Below, piece by piece: positions 20,977-22,918 of a stretch of 32,750 nucleotides of DNA; position 1 is the first letter of the stretch; each line of letters begins with the position of its first letter. The translations under genes and the position numbers were made by a program. Origin of the DNA: Desulfobulbaceae bacterium (GTDB taxonomy: Bacteria; Desulfobacterota; Desulfobulbia; Desulfobulbales; Desulfobulbaceae); NCBI GenBank assembly GCA_015489765.1, contig WFZC01000210.1, forward strand, positions 1 to 32,750, written 5' to 3'. The notes under the pieces are model-generated. The model ran no database searches and was not told where the DNA came from. It saw only the letters and a list, made by a program, of their open reading frames with translations.

Positions 20977-21009
20977 CCAGTTTCTGGGTAAAAATTACCC
21001 AGAAACTGG
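20977..21009. repeat. Perfect inverted repeat with 15-bp arms
   Basis: Arms 20977-20991 and 20995-21009 are fully complementary with a 3-nt AAA spacer. The next plus-strand T-run begins about 12 nt later, so it is not a canonical terminator in either direction. It lies between two divergent promoters. Confidence 0.85.
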
Positions 21010-21119
21010 ACCATGGCGGGTATTTTTTTTACGGTCTTGTTTTTTTCGTCCATCAATGAAAAAAGGTAATGGTATTAAAGTGGCGGTTTTTCAGTGTGAT
21101 AATTTTTTTTTAAATAAAT

Positions 21120-21148
21120 TTCACATATGGCATGGTCTTGGCTATAAT
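21120..21148 (+). promoter_or_regulatory. Near-consensus sigma-70 promoter for a non-coding transcript
   Basis: TTCACA (21120-21125, 5 of 6), a 17-bp spacer, and TATAAT (21143-21148, 6 of 6). This is the best promoter by eye in the window, and it has no gene directly downstream before a terminator. Confidence 0.75.
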
Positions 21149-21154
21149 AGAGGC

Positions 21155-21280
21155 AAATGGCAACTACAAGCGGATGGCAGAAAAGTACAATCTGCTGGGT
21201 TATGTTGGCATTTTGTTGTAACATTTCTTCCTTTTCCCCGGCAGGTTCCTCCCCTCCTTTTCCTGTCGGGGTTTTTTTTT
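21155..21280 (+). ncRNA. Candidate small RNA (about 125 nt)
   Basis: A near-consensus promoter ends at 21148 and a strong intrinsic terminator ends at 21280, with no ribosome-site-supported gene between. A start about 7 nt after the -10 gives a transcript of about 125 nt. Its 5' part can form a small GCAGA/TCTGC hairpin (near 21178-21196), followed by a U-rich single-stranded segment before the terminator stem, a layout common in base-pairing sRNAs. I do not recognise it as 6S, tmRNA, SRP or RNase P RNA. A short frame beginning at the ATG at 21157 lacks a ribosome site and runs through the terminator. Confidence 0.5.
21236..21280 (+). terminator. Rho-independent terminator
   Basis: A 10-bp stem (21236-21245 with 21262-21271, one G-T pair) of CCCCGGCAGG and CCTGTCGGGG has a 16-nt loop and is followed by nine T's. 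It has no gene directly upstream and ends the candidate sRNA. Confidence 0.85.
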
Positions 21281-21460
21281 ATGTTTTTTCAGAAATAAAT
21301 AATCGTAACTGGTCACTTACAAATAATCAGCCGCCATGCCTTGACGAAGGCGTGCGGAGGTATAATTGTACAAGTTATGATCATTGCCTGGAAAAATCCG
21401 GACCGGAATTTGAAGATTTGTCATCAATATGGTGAATTTGAACATTGATTGGAGAAAGTC

Positions 21461-22918
21461 ATGAACAGAGTATCAAGGTCAATAGTGTATTCCATGACCG
21501 CATTATTTGTGTTTTCAGTGTTGCTGTTTTCAACCGCGGCCGGCGCCCTGGCAGGGAATGATGAAAATATCGCTCTGCTCGATAAAACCGGCAAGGCCTT
21601 TGCCGCTGTAGTCAAAAAGGCAAAACCGGCGGTGGTCTACATTGGTGTTGAAAAATCAATCCATGCGGCCGGAGGCCCAAACCCCTATGATTTTTTCAAT
21701 GATCCCTTTTTTGAACGGTTTTTCGGGCCCCAGTTCCGCCATCCCCGCATGCCCCATCGGCGCGAGTTTAAACAGAGGGGTGCGGGCTCCGGTTTTATTA
21801 TCGCCAAGGACGGCTATATTCTGACCAATAATCATGTGGTTGCGGATGCCGATAAAATAACCGTGCGACTGTCCGATGGCCGTGAGTTCAAGGCCAAGGT
21901 CGTGGGTACGGATCCGCAGTCCGATGTCGCCCTGATCAAGATTGACGGTAACAACCTGCCCGTTCTTCCCCTTGGAAATTCCGACAAGATCCAGGTCGGG
22001 GAATGGGTCATTGCCATCGGCAACCCCTTTGAACTGATGCAGACCGTCACCGTTGGTGTTGTTAGCGCCAAGGGCCGCAACCGGATGGGCATCAGCGAGT
22101 ATGAAAATTATATTCAGACCGATGCCGCCATCAATCCCGGCAATTCCGGCGGTCCCCTGCTCAACATTCATGGCGAGGCCATTGGCATCAACAGCGCTAT
22201 CTTTTCAAAAAGTGGGGGCTACATGGGGATCGGGTTCGCCATTCCCATTAACATGGCCAAAAATATAGAGCAGCAGCTTCTCAAGCACGGCAAGGTCACC
22301 CGGGGCTGGCTCGGAGTTATCATTCAGGACATGAATGAGGATCTTGCCCGCTCTTTTAATTTGAAGACCGACAAGGGCGTGTTGATCTCCGAGGTCAGCA
22401 AGGACTCTCCGGCGGACAAAGCCGGACTCAAGCAGGGTGATGTTGTCCTGGCCATTGACGGTAAGGCCGTGGAGAATGTGGGTGCTTTGCGCAATACCAT
22501 TGCCATGACCGCACCCGGAACCAAGCTGGTTCTCAAGGTCATCCGTGACGGCAAGACCTACTCCATTCCCGTGACCATCGGCAGGCAGCCCGCTGATTTT
22601 GAATCAATGGCCAAATCGGCAGGAGTCTCACCGCTGGCAAAGATGGGCCTGACCCTGCAGAACCTGACCCCGGAGCTGGCCGATCAGTTCGGATATCAGA
22701 AGGGACAAGGCGTTTTGATCGCCGGAGTTGATCCCGACAGTCCGGCCGGCCGGGTCGGTCTGCAGGCAGGACAACTGATCGAGGAGGTCAACAAGATCAG
22801 GGTCCATAATCTCAGGGAGCTGAAAAAGGCGCTTCGACGGACAAAGAATAAAAAACAGGTCCTGCTCAGGGTACGTGCCGGTGAATACAGCCAGTATGTA
22901 GTACTTAGGGCCGAATAA
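21461..22918 (+). CDS. degP: Periplasmic serine protease HtrA/DegP family (Do-type)
   Basis: A 485-residue secreted protease/chaperone for misfolded envelope proteins. A signal peptide is visible (hydrophobic residues about 9-30, likely cleavage near AAGALA). The trypsin-like triad is His125 in TNNHVV, Asp155 in SDVAL and Ser229 in GNSGGPL. Two PDZ domains follow, at about residues 285-375 and 390-480, so it is DegP/DegQ-type rather than DegS. A flexible Pro/Phe/Arg-rich LA-like loop lies before the catalytic His. The ATG at 21461 has GGAG at 21451. A perfect terminator follows the stop. The gene could equally be called mucD or degQ. Confidence 0.95.
   Translation: MNRVSRSIVYSMTALFVFSVLLFSTAAGALAGNDENIALLDKTGKAFAAVVKKAKPAVVYIGVEKSIHAAGGPNPYDFFNDPFFERFFGPQFRHPRMPHRREFKQRGAGSGFIIAKDGYILTNNHVVADADKITVRLSDGREFKAKVVGTDPQSDVALIKIDGNNLPVLPLGNSDKIQVGEWVIAIGNPFELMQTVTVGVVSAKGRNRMGISEYENYIQTDAAINPGNSGGPLLNIHGEAIGINSAIFSKSGGYMGIGFAIPINMAKNIEQQLLKHGKVTRGWLGVIIQDMNEDLARSFNLKTDKGVLISEVSKDSPADKAGLKQGDVVLAIDGKAVENVGALRNTIAMTAPGTKLVLKVIRDGKTYSIPVTIGRQPADFESMAKSAGVSPLAKMGLTLQNLTPELADQFGYQKGQGVLIAGVDPDSPAGRVGLQAGQLIEEVNKIRVHNLRELKKALRRTKNKKQVLLRVRAGEYSQYVVLRAE

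Follow-up and report, generated by a model that had tools for sequence, protein, structure and literature searches.

Among described small RNAs (sRNAs), several resemble the locus studied here in design. The LhrC1-5 RNAs of Listeria are under envelope-stress two-component control (LisRK) and are multicopy; they have UCCC or CU-rich loops, one of them in the terminator, and a CU-rich linker, and it is through UCCC loops that they bind the Shine-Dalgarno site of a target (PMC4132741). In Enterobacteriaceae, CpxQ is the 3' UTR sRNA of cpxP. Its promoter is that of an envelope-stress two-component system, and the mRNA to which it is tied encodes a periplasmic chaperone of the Spy/CpxP/ZraP class (PMC4817254). 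The stress-induced CcsR1-4 RNAs of Rhodobacter arise by processing of the 3' UTR of an mRNA for a small protein (PMC8625941). GlmY, GlmZ and other sigma-54 sRNAs are intergenic and have a -24/-12 promoter with an overlapping sigma-70-like promoter; Salmonella zraP is also up-regulated via sigma-54, by the activator ZraR (PMC3844500). In E. coli, ZraR has been tied to the envelope-stress response (PMC8249747).

The locus that we describe lies in a stretch of 32,750 nucleotides, the whole of which was analysed and is called the window. It has likenesses to each of these sRNAs and also differs from each. GlmY and GlmZ are unlike it in sequence, activator sites and lineage, and Hfq was not found in the genus studied here. 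CpxQ belongs to Cpx and cpxP, whereas here we find sigma-54 and zraP; moreover, the RNA described here is often stand-alone with its own promoter, and its sequence is unrelated. The CcsR RNAs, which have CCUCCUCCC loops and a tandem order, are found in Alphaproteobacteria downstream of another gene, while up to 16 copies occur here in a cable bacterium. LhrC1-5 belong to a Gram-positive host, and we know of no sigma-54 promoter for LhrC. Our literature search found no sRNA work for sulfate reducers and cable bacteria.

The predicted small RNA gene and its conservation

The predicted sRNA gene occupies positions 21154-21280 on the + strand. Its transcript would be approximately 127 nt long given the predicted start at about 21154, which agrees with the length of about 125 nt that had been proposed in an earlier, sequence-only reading. 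The 5' end would form a stem-loop (21155-21213, +) in which AAATG-GCAAC pairs with GTTGGCATT, with an inner stem of GCGGAT and ATCTGC. A single-stranded CU-rich linker, ATTTCTTCCTTTT, follows (21215-21235, +) and leads to a terminator hairpin with a C-rich anti-Shine-Dalgarno loop, TTCCTCCCCTCCTTTT, and a tail of nine T (21236-21280, +). The G+C-rich hairpin itself has 10 bp, formed by CCCCGGCAGG and CCTGTCGGGG with 16 nt between them (21236-21271), and the nine T come next (21272-21280). The strong intrinsic terminator of the sequence-only reading is thus found. Our terminator scan missed this hairpin because the scan admits only loops of at most 8 nt.

The terminator stem is completely paired in all eight homologues. 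For the structure as a whole, 97.8% of cells in the proposed stems are paired, as compared to 29-51% when the stems are slid, and two base pairs exhibit changes on both sides. Because the genus sequences are mostly close, compensatory changes are few and covariation is fair, not strong. Folding is somewhat better than for shuffled sequences, with z scores of -1.9 for the window's RNA and -1.9 to -4.5 for eight relatives; in two sequences (L005 and L006), the minimum-energy fold departs from the consensus 5' stem.

A small coding gene was rejected, since its reading frame is not kept among relatives. The frame that starts at the sole conserved ATG has 92, 13, 13, 16, 46 and 10 amino acids in six relatives, and this range of 10-92 bears out the view that 21155-21280 contains no credible gene. 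With no conserved frame, the conservation of the locus is not limited to coding sequence. Rfam was searched with the whole window and yielded no family at its gathering score except two tRNAs elsewhere. No family therefore matches the locus, in keeping with its proposed undescribed status. The best weak match was LhrC (RF00616), with 21 bits versus a gathering score of 110 (E 0.99), and membership in LhrC was rejected on a score so far under the gathering score.

We built a covariance model from this locus, called R1, whose own match in the window scores 143 bits (E 4e-29). By DNA search, most of the genus genomes contain the locus; R1 found full-length copies in seven of the eight, with second copies in three of them (G001, G002 and G007). 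Two of these second copies (L141:2030-3926 in G002:C429, and L140 in G007:C300) are each upstream of an htrA paralogue. Not all copies retain the C-rich loop: one paralogous RNA lacks it where read (L017). Weaker R1 matches occur in 38 of the 74 Desulfobulbaceae genomes, distributed over 12 of 14 genera. The RNA is almost confined to this family, with one match outside it: at an E-value of 0.001, 34 genomes match among the 243 of the order, and 33 of these are within Desulfobulbaceae. An exact pattern scan of genomes of 84,980 species matched 18 stretches, of which 17 belong to Desulfobulbaceae or to unplaced Deltaproteobacteria records, including Candidatus Electrothrix and Desulfogranum mediterraneum. 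The remaining stretch, in Latescibacterota, looks like a chance match, and none of the surrounding features is present there.

The proposal of an undescribed stand-alone sRNA gene is therefore well supported by conservation in relatives. On these comparative grounds, we predict that 21154-21280 is a real, conserved and undescribed small RNA gene. We infer its transcription, the regulator that binds, the mechanism of pairing and the targets.

The promoter and its proposed relationship to Zra-type regulation

The sequence-only reading had assigned the RNA a near-consensus sigma-70 promoter. Such a promoter is present (21120-21148, +): TTCACA (21120-21125) and TATAAT (21143-21148), with a 17-nt spacer, match the consensus at 11 of 12 positions. 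This is the best among six promoter-like sites in 2.5 kb, for which shuffles lead us to expect 2.2 +/- 1.5 sites. However, this promoter is not conserved in the genus; the boxes of a sigma-54 promoter that it overlaps, TGGCATG-GTCT-TGGCT (GG-N10-GC; 21128-21143, +), are conserved instead, together with two upstream activator sites. In six aligned genomes of the genus, the mean majority is 0.11 and 0.61 for the -35 and -10 hexamers of sigma-70, respectively, and 0.93 and 0.89 for the sigma-54 boxes. The activator palindromes reach 0.98 and 0.94, and the spacers around these boxes and palindromes have 0.58-0.62. The loss of the hexamers in this alignment rules out sigma-70 as the conserved promoter. 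The pattern TGGCAYGN4TKGCW has a single match in the window, where 0.03 are expected, and RpoN is encoded in all eight genus genomes.

Activator site 1, GGGTAAAAATTACCC (20986-21000), forms the centre of a perfect inverted repeat of 15+15 bp (20977-21009); among the six genus genomes, 13 of the site's 15 positions do not vary. Site 2, GGGTATTTTTTTTAC (21018-21032), has 12 of 15 positions invariant. The two sites are 32 bp apart, i.e., three helical turns. Judged by these patterns of conservation, the conserved promoter is of the sigma-54 class, which is activator-dependent, and not of the sigma-70 class.

It is nonetheless conceivable, if rather unlikely, that the sigma-70 promoter drives the sRNA in the source species, perhaps in competition with sigma-54. 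Since TATAAT overlaps the -12 box, the consensus match may have arisen by chance, or it may be a real overlapping promoter. The near-perfect hexamers at 17-bp spacing favor the latter, and sigma-70 and sigma-54 promoters do overlap fully at Salmonella glmY and glmZ (PMC3844500). However, the hexamers are gone in most of the relatives that retain the sigma-54 boxes and sites.

The conserved sigma-54 arrangement is shared with zraP. Site 1 also precedes zraP in other genera, and the zraP promoters are built on this sigma-54 plan, their activator sites placed about 113 and 146 bp upstream. When 30 sRNA and zraP promoters were compared, most had paired sites 32-33 bp apart, and the site scores of 12.5-13.5 that are common at these promoters were reached in none of 1800 shuffled windows. 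GG-N10-GC is present at 30 of 30, but partly by construction, because the promoters were picked partly by their sigma-54 score. This score is home-made, with a threshold set by eye; the six-genome genus alignment is free of selection by it.

In many of the family genomes examined, priA, a zraP-like gene and the gene for a ZraS-like kinase stand in a row. A ZraP model matches three of the zraP-like genes with E-values of 9e-11, 4e-7 and 4e-4, all under the curated cut-off. ZraS is likewise the best model for the kinase of one genome (G008), under its curated cut-off, and for the source-genome kinase the AtoS model is marginally better than ZraS, with both below curated cut-offs. The best match to the ZraR model in the source genome is an orphan response regulator (G000:C335:4869-6179), which is a candidate only.

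ResB-like genes at two loci (L084 in G016:C46 and L098 in G038:C80) are likewise preceded by the activator palindrome together with a sigma-54 promoter, which suggests a wider regulon. Such a site and promoter are found before a Spy-like gene in G015 (these genes were all named by eye). Palindrome matches in the source genome with two mismatches allowed are mostly chance. There, one GGGTATTTTTTACCC site near a contig end (L022, G000:C34:4653-4667) adjoins an apparent RND-type exporter gene, and no sigma-54 promoter was seen with it. No matching motif was found in the text of a paper on response regulators of D. vulgaris.

We consider it probable that the locus is a stand-alone sRNA gene of a Zra-type envelope-stress regulon, that it is driven by sigma-54, and that its RNA has an anti-Shine-Dalgarno loop and acts free of Hfq. 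The link to envelope stress that was previously suggested by the nearby htrA gene is supported, but the route to it is the shared Zra-type promoter and not htrA alone. We propose that periplasmic or metal stress would cause the ZraS-like kinase to phosphorylate an NtrC-type regulator. This regulator would bind the two GGGTAA-N3-TTACCC sites and activate sigma-54 RNA polymerase at 21128-21143. The resulting RNA, from about 21154 to 21280, would present its 5' stem-loop, the CU-rich linker and a terminator hairpin with an exposed loop.

Possible functions of the C-rich hairpin

The terminator loop, UUCCUCCCCUCCUUUU, contains the core CCUCC of the 16S anti-Shine-Dalgarno sequence, and loop and linker are rich in C and U. 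The exposed loop may base-pair with target mRNAs at purine-rich ribosome-binding sites and so prevent their translation, with no need for Hfq. Neither Hfq nor ProQ was found in any of the eight genus genomes, some of which are incomplete; both families were detected in control genomes.

Our target search yielded no conserved target. When genomes were searched for the loop's complement, it was modestly more frequent than the reversed pattern in some of them, and not in G003. The hits at ribosome-binding sites were single ones, at rpsL (G000) and at a carbonic anhydrase gene (G006), both named by eye, and we do not put these genes forward as targets. As a target, htrA was rejected, given its low-to-middle rank in duplex energy among genes of the window, although this test was crude.

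The lack of a conserved target is in line with another explanation, in which the C-rich hairpin mainly binds a protein, or serves as a terminator or stabilizer, and is not an antisense loop. A cable bacterium (G087), of the same genus as the Candidatus Electrothrix records, provides a further point in its favor. Adjoining priA in this genome (L136:1864-3410; G087:C1, about 432863-434409), a sigma-54 promoter leads into 16 near-identical tandem C-rich hairpins in units of 85-88 nt, and a separate terminator closes the array. So many near-identical hairpins would suit the titration of a binding partner. However, most members keep the anti-Shine-Dalgarno core while the length of the loop varies, and LhrC provides a proven case of such pairing (PMC4132741). 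We thus regard a hairpin of this other kind as improbable, and an antisense loop as the preferred reading.

Association with zraP and htrA

In four genomes (G008, G009, G016 and G017), the C-rich hairpin is directly 3' of a zraP-like gene. This is the position of a Spy/CpxP/ZraP-type 3' UTR, while the window's RNA has its own promoter. A zraP gene with the hairpin in its 3' UTR is also the arrangement of Desulfogranum mediterraneum DSM 13871. In two other genomes (G012 and G024), priA is flanked by the RNA, which has a sigma-54 promoter of its own, and zraP is absent there; in the first of these, the kinase gene comes next after the RNA. In the source genome and G002, priA adjoins the kinase gene, zraP is missing from its slot, and the RNA is retained at htrA; a Metal_resist-family gene is found elsewhere in the source genome, in another setting. 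The RNA and the 3' UTR of the zraP mRNA are probably related by descent.

The htrA gene of the window (21461-22918, +) encodes an htrA/degP-like periplasmic serine protease of 485 amino acids (TIGR02037, E 3e-161, above the cut-off). In genomes of the genus, the RNA is upstream of htrA wherever the contig extends to htrA. The earlier description of the RNA as just upstream of this gene thus applies to the genus, but not to other genera, which have the RNA beside priA without htrA. This proximity might indicate a cis-acting leader of htrA that starts at about 21154, with stress causing read-through of a hairpin attenuator into htrA. Consistent with this idea, htrA could plausibly belong to an envelope-stress regulon, and the second copies in G002 and G007 also precede htrA paralogues, which implies that the pair of RNA and htrA was duplicated as a unit. 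However, the leader is the least likely of the alternatives: the terminator is strong, with its nine T, htrA has a conserved promoter-like element of its own (CTTGACG...TATAATTGTAC; 21340-21371, +), and no htrA is downstream of the RNA in G012, G024 or cable bacteria. The terminator, the separate element and the settings free of htrA argue against a leader as the main role of the RNA. The promoter-like element has 19 of 32 positions invariant and lies between two poorly conserved spacers. Its spacing of 14 nt is unusually short for sigma-70, and it is possibly a heat-shock-type promoter.

As to the family as a whole, we can offer a tentative hypothesis that goes further than the stand-alone sRNA gene. 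The Desulfobulbaceae RNAs, in zraP 3' UTR and stand-alone forms, might be an undescribed family that outlives zraP and mimics the 16S anti-Shine-Dalgarno sequence free of Hfq and ProQ, and that, with the 16-hairpin array of the cable bacterium, could act as a broad brake on translation during envelope stress.

If our reading is true, an envelope-stress sRNA would be added to the lineage of sulfate reducers and cable bacteria. Moreover, a pairing of periplasmic chaperone and regulatory RNA like that of cpxP and CpxQ would have arisen independently and under another sigma factor. The genomes that have lost zraP but kept the RNA, and those with the RNA in the slot of zraP, would then represent a natural series that leads from an mRNA 3' end to an sRNA gene. 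The array of 16 hairpins would make Hfq-free anti-Shine-Dalgarno regulation directly testable in a Gram-negative bacterium.
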